NCBI RefSeq assembly: GCF_003609995.1
Contig: NZ_AP018786.1
Span: 1,188,001 to 1,252,000, forward strand
Length of the DNA: 64,000 nt
Direction of reading: 5' to 3'
From: Sutterella megalosphaeroides
Lineage (GTDB): Bacteria > Pseudomonadota > Gammaproteobacteria > Burkholderiales > Burkholderiaceae_F
The notes under the pieces are model-generated. The model did no database searches and was not told the origin of the DNA. It worked only from the letters and a program-made list of their open reading frames with translations. Of this stretch, positions 3,044 to 21,547 are shown in pieces. A program made the translations under genes and the position numbers. The first letter of the stretch is position 1. Each line of letters starts with the position of its first letter.

Positions 3044-3907
3044 ATGTCAACGGTCGCGTCGGAACGGTCCGAAACAGACAACGCATTTTCCCGACTCATG
3101 ACCGAATTCGATACGAACGATACCGACGTCAAGGAAGAGCTGCCCGAGAACGCCGACTATCTCACGCAACTCCTCGACACGCTTGAAACTGCGAGTGCGA
3201 CCGAACGCGACAAAGGCACGCGCTTCGAAACGCTCGTCCGAGACTGGCTTCGCAAGGAGCCCACCTATTCGGACCTCTTTACCGACGTGCAAACCTGGAA
3301 GGATTGGGCGTCGAGTCATCCCGACCTCGCCGTCAACGCACGCGACATCGGGATCGACCTCGTAGGCACGAACGCGGACGGCCCGGGCTACACCGCGATC
3401 CAGTGCAAGCTTTACGCGCGCAATGCGAGCGTCCCGAAGGCGGGCATCGACTCCTTCCTCGCCGCTTCGGCGAAGCCCTTCTTCACGCGCCGTTTTTTGG
3501 TGGCGACGAACGAAAAGTGGTCCGAAAACGTCGCGAACGAACTCCATCAGCAGACGATTCCCGTCACGCTCATCACGCGTCGCGAACTCGAGACGTCCGT
3601 CGTCGACTGGTCCGAGTACCTGAAGTCGGGCCGTGTGGTCGAACGCCCGAAGCGCACGCCCCGGCCCTATCAGCTGAACGCGATTGCCAATGTTGTCAAA
3701 GGGTTTGAAACCTCCGACCGCGGCAAGCTCATCATGGCCTGCGGTACCGGAAAGACCTTTACGTCAATGAAAATTGCAGAAGAATCAAGCATTTACCCCC
3801 CCCCCACCAGAATGCTAGAGGTCGGTTCGTACTTTTTCTCGTCCCCTCGCTCTCCCTTCTTTCTCAGACGCTCTCCGACTGGAAGCAGCAGTGCTCGTGC
3901 CGTCTGA
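3044..3907 (+). CDS. Type ISP restriction-modification enzyme, N-terminal part (frame ends after poly-C tract)
   Basis: The 287 codons before and just past a 10-C tract. Residues about 55-190 form an Mrr-like nuclease domain: D105 in GIDLVG and Q120/K122 in AIQCKLY give the D...QxK active-site pattern. Residues 208-245 begin a superfamily 2 helicase (RPYQLNAI, then Walker A ACGTGKT at 232-238). After ESSIYPPP the frame turns to nonsense and stops at 3907, while the next base frame continues the helicase (FVLFLVPSLSLLSQTL). As sequenced, only a truncated nuclease piece is made. With 11 or 8 C the product would be one chain of about 1,695 residues, the usual size and domain order of LlaGI-type ISP enzymes. 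A later start at Met19 is possible. Confidence 0.85.
   Translation: MSTVASERSETDNAFSRLMTEFDTNDTDVKEELPENADYLTQLLDTLETASATERDKGTRFETLVRDWLRKEPTYSDLFTDVQTWKDWASSHPDLAVNARDIGIDLVGTNADGPGYTAIQCKLYARNASVPKAGIDSFLAASAKPFFTRRFLVATNEKWSENVANELHQQTIPVTLITRRELETSVVDWSEYLKSGRVVERPKRTPRPYQLNAIANVVKGFETSDRGKLIMACGTGKTFTSMKIAEESSIYPPPTRMLEVGSYFFSSPRSPFFLRRSPTGSSSARAV
3796..3805 (+). repeat. Poly-C tract (10 C): likely phase-variation switch of the type ISP enzyme
   Basis: Ten consecutive C inside the coding sequence, between helicase motif I and motif Ia. Upstream coding uses codons at positions equal to 2 mod 3; downstream homologous coding uses positions equal to 1 mod 3. Gain of one C or loss of two restores a continuous frame through 3044-8136. 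Homopolymeric C/G tracts of this length are classic slipped-strand contingency loci. A base-calling error at the homopolymer is the competing explanation. Confidence 0.8.
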
Positions 3908-3969
3908 ATGCCTTTGCCGTCTGTTCCGACGCGTCGACGGGTAAGGCCAACCTCGAAGACATCGAACAG

Positions 3970-6900
3970 TTGACGGTCGGAAGCGAGCTCGCTTATCCCG
4001 CCACCACGGACGCGAAAACACTCGCCGATCGCGTTGCCCGCGCCCTCAACGACCACGACGCTCTCACGGTCGTTTTCTCCACCTACCATTCGATCGACGT
4101 CCTGCACGAAGCGCAGCAGAAGTACGGAATGGCCGACTTCGGTCTCATCATCTGCGACGAAGCGCACCGTACGGCCGGCGGTCACTACGTCGAAGGCGAA
4201 GAGGACTCCCCGTTCCAGCGCATCCACGACGCGAACTACGTTCGCGGTAAAAAGCGCCTCTACATGACGGCCACCCCTAAGATTTACGGGGGAGAAGCCA
4301 AAGCCCAGCAAGACGCGGGCGAAGTCGTTCTCTATTCGATGGACGACGAGAAGGTGTTCGGCAAAACCTTCCATACGATCTCCTTTTCCGAGGCCGTCCG
4401 TTTGGGGAGTCTGGTTGACTACAAGGTGATCGTCCTTACGATCGAAGAAAACGTCCTCAAAAAGTACGCCGAGGGACGCGACGACCTGGAGCTCGTGCGC
4501 GACGGCGGGTTGCCCGTGAAGCACGCGGCCAAGGTGATCGGCTGCTGGCGTGCGCTCTCCAAGGTCGACCTGAAGGGCGAACGTTCGATTTTCGACGACG
4601 TTCGCGCGATGAAGCGCGCCGTGGGGTTCGCGCAGATCATCGACGCGCCGAAGGGGCGCAATCTCGACCGTACCTCGTCGAAGCTCTTCGCGGCGAATTT
4701 CGAAAACGTCGTCGAAGCTTTCAAGAAGGAAAACTTCCTCACGTTGAACGCCAAGGACCCGACCTACAGCCGGGCCGCCTACGCGGCCGAGTTCCCGCTC
4801 GAGTGCGACTGCAAGCATATCGACGGGTCGATGAACGCCACAGAAAAAACGGCGCTTCTCGACTGGCTGCGCGAGGAGCCCGCCAAAAACCGCTGCAAGA
4901 TCCTCTTCAACGTTCGGTGCCTTTCGGAAGGGGTCGACGTGCCGGCGCTCGACGCGGTGCTCTTTCTCTCGCCCCGCAAGTCGCAGGTCGAGGTCGTTCA
5001 GACCGTGGGTCGCGTCATGCGCATCGCGCCCAACGCCGGTAAGAAGCGCGGCTACGTCATCCTGCCCGTCGTGACGCCGCCCGGGCTTGCGGGTGAAGAT
5101 GCTCTGAACAACAACAAAGAATTCGACGTTGTTTGGCAGGTGCTCCGGGCCCTGAAGTCGATCGACAACGAGTTCGGTGCGGCGGTGGACCCGCAGCTCG
5201 GCAAGATCAACTCCGACAAGATCGAGGTCGTGAGCCTCACGGAAAAGAAGCTCAACAAAAAACCGAAGGCCTCCGGCGCAACCGGTCCGAAAGGCAAACG
5301 AGGGTCGAAGCCCGAAGGCACGACCGACACCGGAGATCAGGGGAGCCTTTTCGAACGCGACGAAGTGTTCGAAGAACACATCCGCAGCCGCATCCTGAAG
5401 CGCGTCGGCAACCGACGCGAGTGGGGCGACTGGGCCGAGGACGTGGGCCTCTTCTGCGAAAAGCAGGTCGCTCACATCGAGAAGGTCCTCCGCGAAAGCG
5501 AAACGTCCCGCGCGGCGTTCGAGAGTTTCAAGAAAGAACTGAAGGCGACGTTGAACGGCGAGCTTTCGGACAAAGAAATCGTCGACATGCTCGGACAGCA
5601 CGTCGTGACGCAACCGATCCTCGACGCGCTCTTTACGATTCGCGACGACACGGGGAACATCATCTACGAATTCTCAAAGCACAACCCGATCGCCCGGGCG
5701 ATGACCGCGATGGTCGATTCGCTCGACAAGGACGGGATGCGCACGGCAGCGAGCTCGCTCAAGGATTTCTACGAGTCGGTGCAAATCCGCATGCGCAACG
5801 TCAAGACCGCGGTCGAGCGACAGACCGTCATCAAGGACCTCTTCGAGAAGTTCTTCAAGGCGGCTTTCCCGAAGCTTCAGGAAAAGCTCGGCATTGTCTA
5901 TACGCCGGTCGAGGTGGTTGACTTCATCAACCGCTCGGTGGCGGACCTCATGAAGCAGGAGTTCGGCACGAACCTCTACGACGACGGGGTGCACATCCTC
6001 GACCCGTTCTCGGGAACGGGGACCTTCCTCGCCCGCCTCATGCAGAGCGGCCTCATCCCGCAGGACAAGCTCCCGAAGAAGTTCGCGACCGAGCTGCACG
6101 GGAACGAAATCGTCCCGCTCGCCTACTACGTCGCCTCGATGAACCTCGAGGGGGTCTTCCATGAGCTCTGCCCGAACCAGCCCTACGCGCCCAACAACGT
6201 CATGCTCTGGACGGACACCTTTGCCGACCACGGCAACCCCGATGTCTTCAAGACGGCGCTTGGGGAAAACAACGAGCGGCTCGAAAGTCTCGAGAAGACG
6301 GATGTGCGGGTCATCCTGGGGAATCCGCCGTATTCTGCGGGTCAGAAATCACAAAATGACAATAATCAAAATGAGCACTATGAGAGTCTGGATGCTCGCA
6401 TCGATGAAACTTACTCGGCCCGTACGGATGTGACGCTGAAGAAGCTGAAGGATTCATATATCCGGGCGTATCGTTGGGCATCGGATCGAATCGGTGATAA
6501 GGGGATTATCGGGTTTGTGGCAAATGCAAGTTGGTTGACGAGTAGTAGCGCTAACGGCATGAGGAAGTGCATTTCCGAAGAGTTTAATTCCATTTATGTA
6601 TACAACTTAAAGGGAAATCAGAGAACATCAAAGGAACAGTCTCGTAAGGAGGGTGGTAAGATTTTTGGTGAGGGTAGTCGTTCTGCCATCGCTATTGTTT
6701 TATTGATCAAGAACCCTGACCATAATGGAAAAGAGGGGATTTTCTATTATGAGGTTGATGATTATCTAAGTAAGGCTGAAAAGCTTGAAGGACTGTCTCG
6801 AACCGGTTCGATGCTTAATGTGCCTGTAAGGATTATTATTCCGGATGAATATGGCGATTGGTTTGAACATCGAGAGGGAACGTTTTCAAAATACTATCCG

Positions 6901-8136
6901 ATTTTTGACTCAAAATCGGACGTTCCTGCAATCTTTGATGAGAAAATCGTCGGTGTAAGTACAAATCGCGACAAATGGGTTTGGGGATCGTCTACGACGC
7001 AAATCGCGAAGAATATTGATAGAATTAAAGAATCTTACACTCGCGCATTGGGTGTGATGAAAACGTCGAGGACTCCCAGTAATAAGGAGAAAATTACCGA
7101 GGCCAGAGCTGCCGTGCAGGGTGATATTGCATGGAGTTGTGGATTATTGAGGCGGTTGGAAAGGTTTGAAGCTGTTTCTGGATTTGATCTCGGCAAGATG
7201 AGGTTGGCCGCATATAGACCATTTGTTGTTCAAAATCTCTACTATGATCGAGAATCCTTTGTTGAGAGGCCTGGACGGTGGAGCCAGGTTTTTCGGGATG
7301 ATTTTACGAAGAATCTAATAATTTGTTTTAATCAAAACTGGACAGGTGAAGGGCAAATTGTCGTGATGACAAATCGTATTGCAGATTTGCATTTCAATGG
7401 CGATACGCAGTGTTTTCCTAGGTGGATTCCCAGGGTGACAGATTTTGCTCAGGGGAGCCTTTGCCTGGGATATGAGGACGATGATCGGGAGAGCGGCTTT
7501 TCGAAAGATGCACTGCCGCATTTCCAGAGGGCCTATCCCGGTCACACGATCACCGAAGACGATCTCTTCTACTACATCTACGGGATTCTGCATTCGGAAG
7601 AATATCGAACGCGCTACGCGAACAACCTCATAAAAGAGCTGCCCCGCATCCCGCGGGTGGCGACCTACGAGCAGTTCCGAGCGTTCGCGGATGCGGGGCG
7701 AAAGTTGGCGGATCTTCACGTCAACTACGAACACGTCGCTCCTTATGCGGGCGTGAAGCTCGTGAAGAAGGAGGGGAATGCCGACTACCGCGTGGAACAG
7801 ATGAAGTGGGGGAAGATCCCCGGGAAGAAAGGGAACGCCGCGAAGGACAAGACCCGACTCGTCTACAACGACTGGCTCACCATCGAGAACATCCCGCCGG
7901 AGGCCCAGGAGTATGTTGTCAACACGAAGTCGGCTCTCGACTGGGTTGTGGAACGTGCATGCGTTTCGGTTGATAAGGACTCGGGAATCGTCAACGATTT
8001 CAACGACTACGCGGCCGAAATCGGGGACCCGCGCTACCCGTTGGATCTTTTCCTGAAAGTGATCACGGTGAGCCTCGAAACCGTGAAGATTGTGAAGGGA
8101 CTGCCCGCGCTTGAGATCCACCCGTTGGATGCCTAA
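3970..8136 (+). CDS. Type ISP restriction-modification enzyme, helicase, N6-adenine methyltransferase and recognition part
   Basis: Continuation of the enzyme begun at 3044. The frame is already open from just before the poly-C tract; 3970 is only its first ATG. It carries DEAH (about residues 63-66, CDEAHRTAGG), helicase motif VI (QTVGRVMRIAP), a coupler, methyltransferase motif I DPFSGTGTF (about 678) and motif IV NPPY (about 785), marking gamma-class N6-adenine methylation. The C-terminal part is the target-recognition domain. Single-chain type ISP enzymes methylate one strand of an asymmetric site and translocate before cutting. Base composition falls sharply from about 6340 to 7495, right after NPPY, then returns to normal, suggesting exchange of the recognition module. 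Translation of this part requires a tract of 8 or 11 C. Confidence 0.85.
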   Translation: MTVGSELAYPATTDAKTLADRVARALNDHDALTVVFSTYHSIDVLHEAQQKYGMADFGLIICDEAHRTAGGHYVEGEEDSPFQRIHDANYVRGKKRLYMTATPKIYGGEAKAQQDAGEVVLYSMDDEKVFGKTFHTISFSEAVRLGSLVDYKVIVLTIEENVLKKYAEGRDDLELVRDGGLPVKHAAKVIGCWRALSKVDLKGERSIFDDVRAMKRAVGFAQIIDAPKGRNLDRTSSKLFAANFENVVEAFKKENFLTLNAKDPTYSRAAYAAEFPLECDCKHIDGSMNATEKTALLDWLREEPAKNRCKILFNVRCLSEGVDVPALDAVLFLSPRKSQVEVVQTVGRVMRIAPNAGKKRGYVILPVVTPPGLAGEDALNNNKEFDVVWQVLRALKSIDNEFGAAVDPQLGKINSDKIEVVSLTEKKLNKKPKASGATGPKGKRGSKPEGTTDTGDQGSLFERDEVFEEHIRSRILKRVGNRREWGDWAEDVGLFCEKQVAHIEKVLRESETSRAAFESFKKELKATLNGELSDKEIVDMLGQHVVTQPILDALFTIRDDTGNIIYEFSKHNPIARAMTAMVDSLDKDGMRTAASSLKDFYESVQIRMRNVKTAVERQTVIKDLFEKFFKAAFPKLQEKLGIVYTPVEVVDFINRSVADLMKQEFGTNLYDDGVHILDPFSGTGTFLARLMQSGLIPQDKLPKKFATELHGNEIVPLAYYVASMNLEGVFHELCPNQPYAPNNVMLWTDTFADHGNPDVFKTALGENNERLESLEKTDVRVILGNPPYSAGQKSQNDNNQNEHYESLDARIDETYSARTDVTLKKLKDSYIRAYRWASDRIGDKGIIGFVANASWLTSSSANGMRKCISEEFNSIYVYNLKGNQRTSKEQSRKEGGKIFGEGSRSAIAIVLLIKNPDHNGKEGIFYYEVDDYLSKAEKLEGLSRTGSMLNVPVRIIIPDEYGDWFEHREGTFSKYYPIFDSKSDVPAIFDEKIVGVSTNRDKWVWGSSTTQIAKNIDRIKESYTRALGVMKTSRTPSNKEKITEARAAVQGDIAWSCGLLRRLERFEAVSGFDLGKMRLAAYRPFVVQNLYYDRESFVERPGRWSQVFRDDFTKNLIICFNQNWTGEGQIVVMTNRIADLHFNGDTQCFPRWIPRVTDFAQGSLCLGYEDDDRESGFSKDALPHFQRAYPGHTITEDDLFYYIYGILHSEEYRTRYANNLIKELPRIPRVATYEQFRAFADAGRKLADLHVNYEHVAPYAGVKLVKKEGNADYRVEQMKWGKIPGKKGNAAKDKTRLVYNDWLTIENIPPEAQEYVVNTKSALDWVVERACVSVDKDSGIVNDFNDYAAEIGDPRYPLDLFLKVITVSLETVKIVKGLPALEIHPLDA
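6340..7495 (+). other. AT-rich mosaic segment covering the recognition region of the type ISP enzyme
   Basis: Hand counts of single 60-base rows give 37/60 G+C at 5941, 25/60 at 6601 and 20/60 at 6721. Flanking rows on both sides look like the rest of the window. The frame stays intact through the segment, so it is an in-frame replacement rather than an insertion. It starts just after the catalytic NPPY motif and ends before the C-terminal domain. Confidence 0.75.
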
Positions 8137-19290: not shown

Positions 19291-20541
19291 TTACGGGTTT
19301 CTTGCTGCCGTCTTGGCCGCTCGCACGCTTTCGCGCACGGTCATGTCGGCCAGACCGTGTTTGGCCTGCGCGGCACGAGCCATACGATCCATGAGAGGCG
19401 TGCAGGGCGAAACGCGCACGAGCTGCTCGGGGCGCTCGGGATCAGGATTCGGGCGAAAGCACTCGTACGTGCCGTCCGCGTTGAGAATCGCCGCGCCCCA
19501 CGTGCCGACGGCGAACCCGTGGCTCGTGGGCCCGAAAAAGGAGTCCGCGAGGTCGACCGTCGAGGGCGCCAGAAGGTTGCGCCCCTCGAAGTCGGCGGGC
19601 GTTTTTCCGAGAACGAGCGCGTTGAGGGTCGGGAAGATGTCGCGGTGTCCGACGGGGCGGTCCGTGTCGACCGATCGGCGCGCTTCGGCGGAGAGGAGCT
19701 TCTCGGGAATCCAGAATATGAGCGGAACGCCCATCTGGCGAAGCCAATAACCGTCGGGGTCGTAGGTGAAGCGCGCGTTGTGGTCGCCCGTGGCCGCCAC
19801 CACCGTATGCTCGAGCTGGCCCGACACACGCAGGTCGCGCACGAACCGCCCGAGAGCGTTCGCGGAGTACCGATAGGTTTGTTGCATCGCGCGCGTGTCT
19901 TCGGGCGACTTTTGCCGTACGTAGGCGGGAAGTCGCGAGGGATCGACGGGCGGCACCTCGGCGCCGTCGGGAACGCGGTGCGGCGGGTGGTTGGTGGTCG
20001 AAAGAAGAACGAGGAAGAGTTTTTCGCCTTTGCGGTCCGCTTCGTCGAGAAGCTCCAACGCGTAGCGGAACATCCATTCGTCGCCGACGCCCCAGGTGCC
20101 CGATTCGGCCTGCGGGTAGCGTGCGCTCAAAGCGGCCGCGCCGTAGACGGCATCGAACCCCTGAGTGGGAAAGGTTTCCGCGATCGAACGCCAGCCTTCG
20201 GGGCCCGAGGTGAGGAAAATCGTGCGGTAGCCCGCATCGCGGTAGGCGCGAATTCGCGAGACGGAGAGCGGTTTGCGACCGTAGACGGTCTGAGTGAGGG
20301 GCGTCAAAGGCGTGTCGAAAAGAATGCCTTCGAGCGACGGAAAGGTGCCCGAGCCGATGCAGATGCCTTTTCGAAAGAGGAGTGCGTTTCGGAGTTCGGG
20401 TTCGAGAAGACCGAGTTGGTCGTTGCCTGTTCCGTGTGTTTCAAATTGCTCGCGGCCCATCGATTCCATGAGCGCGAAGACGACGTGAGTATTTTTCAGG
20501 CGCTGAGGCGCGTCAGAAAATGCCGGCCCGGCGGGGGGGGG
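19291..20541 (-). CDS. LtaS/OpgB-like sulfatase-fold transferase, catalytic part (frame begins at poly-C tract)
   Basis: The periplasmic alkaline-phosphatase-fold domain of a membrane phosphoglycerol/phosphoethanolamine-type transferase. Visible landmarks: metal-binding ALMESMG, nucleophile Thr in GTFPSLEG, STTNHPPH, and metal-binding ATGDHNAR. It is in a different frame from the five-helix membrane part at 20513-21385; the two join only if the 9-C tract becomes 8 or 11. The left boundary is the stop; the right boundary is drawn at the tract because upstream codons in this frame are not protein-like. Related enzymes decorate LPS, periplasmic glucans or teichoic acids; the acceptor is unknown here. 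Confidence 0.8.
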   Translation of the reverse strand, partial: PPPAGPAFSDAPQRLKNTHVVFALMESMGREQFETHGTGNDQLGLLEPELRNALLFRKGICIGSGTFPSLEGILFDTPLTPLTQTVYGRKPLSVSRIRAYRDAGYRTIFLTSGPEGWRSIAETFPTQGFDAVYGAAALSARYPQAESGTWGVGDEWMFRYALELLDEADRKGEKLFLVLLSTTNHPPHRVPDGAEVPPVDPSRLPAYVRQKSPEDTRAMQQTYRYSANALGRFVRDLRVSGQLEHTVVAATGDHNARFTYDPDGYWLRQMGVPLIFWIPEKLLSAEARRSVDTDRPVGHRDIFPTLNALVLGKTPADFEGRNLLAPSTVDLADSFFGPTSHGFAVGTWGAAILNADGTYECFRPNPDPERPEQLVRVSPCTPLMDRMARAAQAKHGLADMTVRESVRAAKTAARNP

Positions 20542-21385
20542 TAAATTGATGTTTATCAGTAGGATAGGATGCCTCAGCTTCGCCTTCGATTCTATCCGTT
20601 TCGCTCGCAACGCGCAGAGCCTCGTGCGCGCTTTCGCGCGTCGGGAAACCCAACTTGGCGAGACCTTCGAGAGGATCCCCGTCGGGACGCACGGCGGCCA
20701 ACATCCGAAATTCCTTGTAGGCGGTATAGAGCGCCGCGGGGCCGTTCGGAACCGTCGCATTCACAAACGGATGAGGCGACACCGAAAAATCCTGCTGACG
20801 CAACGGGAAGGTCCCCAGGCTTCCGCGCACGGCAACGGCCAGAAGAAGCGTTCCGGCAACGGCCGTCAAGACGACGCGCGTGAGCTTTTCGGTCGACGGT
20901 TCGGCGCTATTGCGCAGAAGCCGCCCGGCCAAGACGGGCGGAAGCGCCACGAGCAGGAGGACGGCCGCGAGGTACTCGAACACCGGCCAGTCTTCGAGCA
21001 GTGTGGCGACGATCGCCTTCGTGTCGTCCTGAAAAAGCCCGAAGACGACGGCGTTGACGGGCGTCGCGTAAAAGCCGTAGTAGCCGAAGTTGACGACGTC
21101 GAGAAGCGCCGTGACGGCATAGCCCGCGACACCCGCGACGGCCGCCGCCCGACGAAGCGCCGGAAAGCGAATGCCTGCGATCAGAAGCACCCAGGCGGGC
21201 AAAAGCGCGATCGCAAGCCACTTGAGGTCGACGCGCAGCCCCGTGACGAGCCCCGGGATCGCATCCGCCCAGGTGAGCGTCTCGGGGCGGTACGTCCCGA
21301 AAAAGACGAGTCGCACGACGGAGAGTGCGACGATCGATAGAAAAAAGAAAAGCGCCGCGCGCTTTGTATGGTTTGTCCAAGTCAT
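20513..21385 (-). CDS. LtaS/OpgB-like transferase, membrane N-terminal part (frame ends after poly-C tract)
   Basis: 290 codons. Five predicted membrane helices (for example ALFFFLSIVALSVVRLVFFG, LAIALLPAWVLLIAGI, and a last one near VVLTAVAGTLLLAVAVRG), then a periplasmic linker containing VSPHPFVNATVPNGPAALY, the arrangement of LtaS-like enzymes. Just past the linker the frame runs into the C tract (HQFTPPRRAGIF) and stops. The catalytic domain continues one base out of frame. As sequenced, only a membrane stub is made. It lies 162 bases after the methyltransferase-HNH gene, in the same direction. Confidence 0.8.
   Translation of the reverse strand: MTWTNHTKRAALFFFLSIVALSVVRLVFFGTYRPETLTWADAIPGLVTGLRVDLKWLAIALLPAWVLLIAGIRFPALRRAAAVAGVAGYAVTALLDVVNFGYYGFYATPVNAVVFGLFQDDTKAIVATLLEDWPVFEYLAAVLLLVALPPVLAGRLLRNSAEPSTEKLTRVVLTAVAGTLLLAVAVRGSLGTFPLRQQDFSVSPHPFVNATVPNGPAALYTAYKEFRMLAAVRPDGDPLEGLAKLGFPTRESAHEALRVASETDRIEGEAEASYPTDKHQFTPPRRAGIF
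20533..20541 (-). repeat. Poly-C tract (9 C on coding strand): likely phase-variation switch of the LtaS-like gene
   Basis: Nine G on the + strand, nine C in the coding direction, at the junction of the membrane and catalytic parts. Upstream coding reads ACC-CCC-CCC-C; downstream coding starts GCC-GGG directly after the tract, so the two agree only when the number of C minus two is a multiple of three (8 or 11). This is the same base, a similar length and the same two ON lengths as the restriction-modification tract at 3796. Confidence 0.8.
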
Positions 21386-21547
21386 GTCGATCGGTTGAGG
21401 TATGGAAAATCGATGGTGGGTTGAGAAACGAAAAAACGAAGTCGGGTTCTCGGCGCTCTTGGGAGGCCTTGAGCCCGATCCGGTGGGGGTTGATGGGAAG
21501 GTGAAATGCTGTTGGATTGTCGGCAGATCGAAGATCCGCCCCGGGCC

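Follow-up and report, generated by a model that had tools for sequence, protein, structure and literature searches.

A type ISP restriction-modification gene of Sutterella megalosphaeroides as a candidate phase-variable locus, out of frame at a ten-C tract in the deposited genome

A type ISP gene divided between two frames

The genome of Sutterella megalosphaeroides is a single contig of 2.73 Mb, of which we analysed the stretch from 1188001 to 1252000 (the window, 64,000 nucleotides; coordinates given without a locus label count from its first letter). Positions 3044-8136 of the window hold a type ISP restriction-modification gene on the plus strand, whose frame is broken once, at a run of ten C at 3796-3805. 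The first frame (3044..3907, +; 287 aa plus stop, starting at ATG 3044) encodes an Mrr-type nuclease domain and the beginning of a helicase up to motif I, and the second (3709..8136, +; open to 8133, with its stop reaching 8136) encodes the rest of the helicase, a coupler, an N6-methyltransferase and an ISP specificity domain, its homology starting only downstream of the C tract. In the Pfam search the first frame matched Mrr_cat_2 (E 6e-34) and profile positions 3-46 of ResIII. The remainder of ResIII was matched by the second frame, followed on the same strand by Helicase_C (4801..5025, residues 278-352 of the frame counted from 3970), the ISP coupler PF22240 (5422..5811, residues 485-614), the N6-methyltransferase PF02384 (matched part 5827..6384, residues 620-805) and the specificity domain Type_ISP_C, PF18135 (6931..8049, residues 988-1360). 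The PADLOC profile PDLC03597, which is labelled type IIG, was divided in the same manner, with positions 5-210 in the first frame and 271-1640 in the second.

The domain order is thus that of a type ISP enzyme (Mrr nuclease, helicase-translocase, coupler, N6-methyltransferase, specificity domain) spread over two frames, and the catalytic and helicase motif set of the type (PD-QxK, Walker A, DEAH, motif VI, DPFxGTG, NPPY) is present. On the plus strand we located the nuclease motif D..QxK (3350-3409), the helicase Walker A (3743-3757), motif Ia (3841-3852), DEAH (4156-4167) and motif VI (4999-5022), and the methyltransferase motifs DPFSGTG (6001-6021) and NPPY (6322-6333). The same chain order is found in the type ISP enzymes LlaGI (PDB 5ffj) and LlaBIII (PDB 4xqk), which share with the window gene the ISP coupler and the C-terminal domains. 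The second frame is similar to both over its full length (E 8e-259 and E 2e-242, respectively). The window gene differs in having its frame divided where an insert carries a C tract; no slippage tract is known to us in either of the two enzymes.

Type ISP homologues have one frame each, of about 1,600-1,700 codons, and the type is defined by a single polypeptide; the deposited sequence of the window gene has two frames, and we file it as a type ISP member in a broken state. Enzymes of this type also translocate at the expense of ATP, cut between sites arranged head to head and methylate adenine at an asymmetric site. The initial annotation had placed the sole defect of the gene at a frame mismatch between helicase motifs I and Ia, which is borne out here, since the tract lies between Walker A and motif Ia, the motifs checked are intact and no other frame defect was found over about 5 kb. 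Between 3806 and 8133 there are no stops in one frame, compared to 49 and 58 in the other two, so that the 1442 codons downstream of the tract are open throughout. The arithmetic of the two open frames also agrees with its proposal that 8 or 11 C would restore about 1,695 codons.

Aligned to the homologue in genome G051 (L014), the window gene has a 23-base insert between motifs I and Ia (3785..3807, +), and the tract lies inside it. The spacing from Walker A to motif Ia, (V/M)PS(L/I), was 20 residues in 26 of the 28 loci that matched the pattern (57 scanned) and in all nine that matched among ten further loci. This amounts to a fixed spacing in 35 of 37 measurable homologue loci. Loci in which the pattern found no match do not enter this count; they comprise shorter relatives, incomplete genes and also entire ISP genes (for example L030, L101, L104 and L127). 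Because the two exceptions have 25 and 30 residues at this place, the loop between motifs I and Ia tolerates insertion, and the in-frame form of the window gene, whose loop would exceed the usual 20 residues by 7 or 8, would fall within the natural range. A C10 inside the window alone is not remarkable, which counts against a switch: dinucleotide shuffles of the window contained 0.22 such runs on average, with at least one in 13 of 100 shuffles. Shuffling of the window was therefore too weak to argue from, and the decay of run lengths across the whole genome was used instead (see below).

Tracts and rearrangements in other type ISP genes

Type ISP matches were found in 7 of 67 family genomes, a patchy distribution, and no C/G run of at least 8 was seen in the ISP loci from the other six ISP-bearing genomes. 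Runs of this length inside an ISP frame occurred in four genes, including that of the window, among 73 loci, which overlap and include partial genes and shorter relatives. In ten further loci, seven passed a whole-gene filter, which missed one of the four genes (L102), and none of the seven had a C/G run of at least 8. The absence of such a tract from most of the ISP genes examined counts against a switch. Two of the remaining tract-bearing genes, L102 and L103, are the two ISP genes of genome G112, which belongs to the same class as the window genome. In L103 the motif I-Ia loop holds an insert unlike that of the window gene; it includes a C8 run, at which the frame breaks, and a second C8 follows further downstream within the open frame. 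L102 carries a G9 run in the methyltransferase region with its frame of 1611 codons unbroken, and the fourth gene, L028 from an Anaerobiospirillum MAG, has a G9 run in an N-terminal insert, likewise with the frame unbroken.

A tree was built on the part of the gene downstream of the tract, for which 36 of 43 loci gave usable sequence. The window gene grouped with those of S. massiliensis, P. secunda and Ca. Aphodousia (support 100), and L103 paired with the other G112 gene (92, under the star level of the tool) in a separate group of 27 rows. On the simplest reading of these sequences, the tracts in the motif I-Ia loop of the window gene and of L103 would be of independent origin. A search of plasmids returned 172 records with ISP relatives.

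These comparisons bear on the possibility that the window gene does not switch but was broken recently and is being lost. Such decay would agree with the patchy distribution of type ISP genes in the family and with the broken state being the sole one known from an assembly, but it fits poorly with 1442 downstream codons free of stops and with all checked motifs intact. It would also have to explain why the break lies at a revertible repeat, which random loss would seldom hit, and why L103 provides a parallel in the same loop; we regard it as very unlikely. A gene that is switched off at its tract is the reading that we pursue here.

The relatives closest in the tree have a different feature, an inverted, head-to-head partial copy comprising the methyltransferase end and the specificity domain, which adjoins the ISP gene in P. 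secunda (L027:529-2613, -), Ca. Aphodousia (L024:1-1758, -) and S. massiliensis (L026:3-1433, -). The spare copies are 74-92% alike to the ISP gene in blocks that flank a diverged core on both sides; in Aphodousia two stretches, of 130 and 111 bases, match exactly. As judged from the sequences, this arrangement would permit inversion or conversion and is a likely one for specificity switching; no recombinase was identified in an unsystematic inspection. In the genome of S. megalosphaeroides itself no second ISP match was found, nor any long inverted repeat in the first 14 kb of the window. However, an AT-rich block (6331..7480, +) overlaps the specificity region, at 43% GC versus 57-62% in the other coding segments, and would fit a specificity segment acquired in a past exchange. 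Other ISP loci appear rearranged in other ways. In G009 the nuclease-helicase-coupler part (L107:4258-7332, -) and the methyltransferase-specificity part (L107:7966-9990, +) are on opposite strands, and a frame of 1219 codons (L108:84-3740) has a type V secretion ESPR at its start and Type_ISP_C at its end, which may reflect either a rearrangement or an assembly chimera.

Long C/G runs in the genome and in the family

We investigated the lengths of C/G runs in the whole S. megalosphaeroides genome on both strands. Exact lengths of 7 and 8 were found in 32 and 5 runs, respectively, and another 12 runs reached at least 9 (9 in four, 10 in six, 12 in one and 18 in one). If run numbers continued to fall off as they do from 7 to 8, 0.93 runs of at least 9 would be expected (Poisson P 3.5e-10); with a slower decay, at a ratio of 0.3, the expectation is 2.1 (P 2.7e-6). 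The window gene thus has one mark of a contingency gene, a long simple repeat in the coding frame, in a genome where such repeats exceed chance.

Several of the other long runs lie in or beside fimbrial, porin and membrane-sulfatase genes or long open frames. Within the window, a C9 on the coding strand (20533-20541, -) breaks a membrane-sulfatase gene into two pieces (20516-21547 and 19294-20760, -), of which the first is membrane-type without a Pfam match and the second contains the sulfatase domain. Sulfatase matches were found in 16 of 67 family genomes, its own included, and no run of at least 7 was seen at the corresponding site in 12 family orthologues, one of which (L206) aligned in the wrong frame and was disregarded. 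In the orthologue L215 there is a C/G run of 9, perhaps close to the start of the gene. A further C10 (L039:5505-5514) is found near the start of a fimbrial subunit gene, within its open frame and beside usher genes. At L040, ATGAAATTTA followed by C9 (L040:5365-5373) stands just before a frame of 1476 codons without a Pfam match, to which the closest ATG on the upstream side is not in frame. Two C10 runs are upstream of coding regions, one 134 bases before a porin gene (L035:5596-5605) and one before a frame of over 1800 codons (L037:5515-5524), the start of which is presumably ESPR-like (type V signal region). The remaining six of the 12 runs fall in intergenic stretches or at the ends of predicted genes, where they could be assigned at all. 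Near the tract at L034 we noted what we take, by eye, to be an 'FNR-like' box. The longest run found in the genome, 18 bases of C/G, lies between a Mur-ligase-domain gene and a SPOR-domain gene (L041:5657-5674).

Some sequencing methods count homopolymers poorly, and long C runs are prone to error. The run in the ISP gene might accordingly be real and yet miscounted, with the majority length in the sequenced strain in frame, the gene ON and the break an assembly error. Three observations argue against this. The insert and the run are absent from the homologues, so the site is odd at any exact length; a separate assembly, that of G112, has both a run and a break in this loop; and the fimbrial gene, if no other, has a coding tract that is in frame, which means that the assembly does not break every tract. 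We consider a miscount quite improbable, and a break that reflects the OFF state of a switch is again the reading preferred.

C runs of at least 10 were present in 46 of 67 family genomes. A type IIG restriction-modification gene, for which the homologue search matched 3 of the 67 genomes, is broken in G050 at TTTA-C10 (L057:656-665), where the profile match is divided as well, the upstream part ending at profile position 189 and the downstream part starting at 192. In G063 the homologue has C9 at the same site and is open across it, the gene being in more than one piece, and in G001 a homologue that is 80% identical has no tract at the site and an open frame. We had considered that tracts always arrive as insertions, but rejected this since the tract in the type IIG gene stands in place of a tract-free stretch and adds no codon. 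An uncharacterised two-part gene has C8 in one member of the pair G002 and G003 (L046:1505-1512) and C10 at the same place in the other (L047, -), out of frame in both, with identities of 58% and 50% for its two parts. The tract states of this gene and of the type IIG gene are differences between species, not between isolates. Beside glycosyltransferase domains, frame breaks were seen at a C9 (L058:1505-1513) and a C8 (L048:1505-1512) in two family genomes.

The long tracts also often have a characteristic 5′ context. Across the 67 genomes the pattern TTWA-C8 gave 47 matches, compared to 14 for the reversed control. A general TTTA leader was rejected, since among 30 tracts of at least C10, taken one per genome and none from the genus of the window, only one was preceded by TTWA and 13 by TA. 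In 30 family genomes (L173-L202), TA precedes 16 of 35 runs of at least 9, compared to 0-4% of shorter runs, and in the genome of S. megalosphaeroides it precedes 6 of the 12.

A proposed slippage switch in a type ISP enzyme

We propose that the type ISP gene is a phase-variable (contingency) locus that is OFF in the deposited assembly, and we put the probability of this at a little over three in four. The C10 would act from its insert within the loop that separates helicase motif I from Ia and that is permissive to insertion; there, a slipped-strand change in the run would bring the downstream helicase, methyltransferase and specificity domains into or out of frame with the nuclease. With the frames mismatched as deposited, normal translation should yield only the 287-aa nuclease and part-helicase piece, the OFF state, and this product, in which the helicase ends after motif I, is for that reason probably inert. 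We infer that the run changes length in living cells and that the in-frame form is active; the gain would be a population whose cells differ in restricting phage and other DNA and, perhaps, in methylation. The proposal draws support from the tract and frame break in the same loop of the distant ISP gene L103, from the unbroken G9 tracts in L028 and L102, from the excess of long C/G runs in the genome and from the type IIG gene whose tract differs between genomes (C10, C9 or absent). The long runs in or beside fimbrial, porin and membrane-sulfatase genes and the C8 and C10 of the G002/G003 gene point in the same direction. The initial annotation, which had also read the locus as a slippage switch that is off, was right in kind and is partly supported: the switch is still the best reading and has gained independent support, although length change at the tract and a methylation-driven regulon (phasevarion) would be extrapolations, the latter a purely speculative one.

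Whether the whole enzyme would be switched depends on the fate of the second frame. A shorter methyltransferase-specificity protein might still be made in the out-of-frame state, by internal initiation or slippage, so that the tract would switch restriction and some methylation would persist. The tract does separate the nuclease from the methyltransferase, and in Helicobacter pylori the C-terminal fragment HP0669, which consists of methyltransferase and specificity domains, is reported to be an active methylase on its own when overexpressed (PMC3936762). Against this, the in-frame starts after the tract have Shine-Dalgarno matches of at most 4 bases, and that only at ATG 5737, in a scan of such low power that the start at 3044 also scores 0. 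Such a partial switch seems unlikely, though less so than either a miscount or gene loss. As the second frame holds the methyltransferase and specificity domain and the HP0669 fragment can methylate, the joint loss of nuclease and methylase that would follow from a switch of the whole enzyme is only likely.

Slippage-switched restriction-modification enzymes of types I and III are documented. Those of type IIG are likewise described (PMC3936762, PMC4889913). The closest working parallel to the window gene is Cj0031 of Campylobacter jejuni, a single-chain type IIG nuclease-methylase with an in-frame poly-G switch and many homologues without the tract, for which the authors predict the joint loss of both activities (PMC4889913). 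It differs in that it has no translocase, and in that switching, methylation and expression changes were measured there. In H. pylori, a proline-encoding homopolymeric C tract switches the single-chain type IIG enzyme JHP1272/HP1353-HP1354 on and off (PMC3936762), although this enzyme is not of type ISP and has a second tract that changes specificity. The type ISP genes HP0667-HP0669/JHP0612-JHP0613 of H. pylori are likewise broken by frameshifts, and those of HP0667-HP0669, unlike that of the window gene, are stated in the same source not to be due to sequence repeats (PMC3936762). Searches of the open-licence literature for type ISP with phase variation, or with inverted repeats or recombination, returned no slippage-switched type ISP enzyme among the partial texts covered; nothing relevant was found there for Sutterella phase variation, as judged by titles and the first part of abstracts, nor anything for invertible PglX.

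A broader proposal, for which we see the balance as even, is that type ISP genes are recurrent contingency loci with two routes of variation. Poly-C/G slippage would switch the whole enzyme and would have originated repeatedly in the motif I-Ia loop, and the inverted spare specificity domains of Parasutterella secunda, Ca. Aphodousia and Sutterella massiliensis could switch recognition. The slippage route of the Sutterellaceae would then fall within a wider, uncharted poly-C contingency set, in which the long tracts have a distinct 5′-TA context. The repeated use of one loop and the poly-C repertoire of the family are what raise the interest of the locus. If confirmed, the switch would add a translocating single-chain enzyme to the slippage-switched restriction-modification enzymes and would make one helicase loop a repeated switch site. 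The Sutterellaceae, which are gut commensals, would become candidate carriers of an extensive poly-C contingency repertoire, where seemingly broken genes may merely be switched off.
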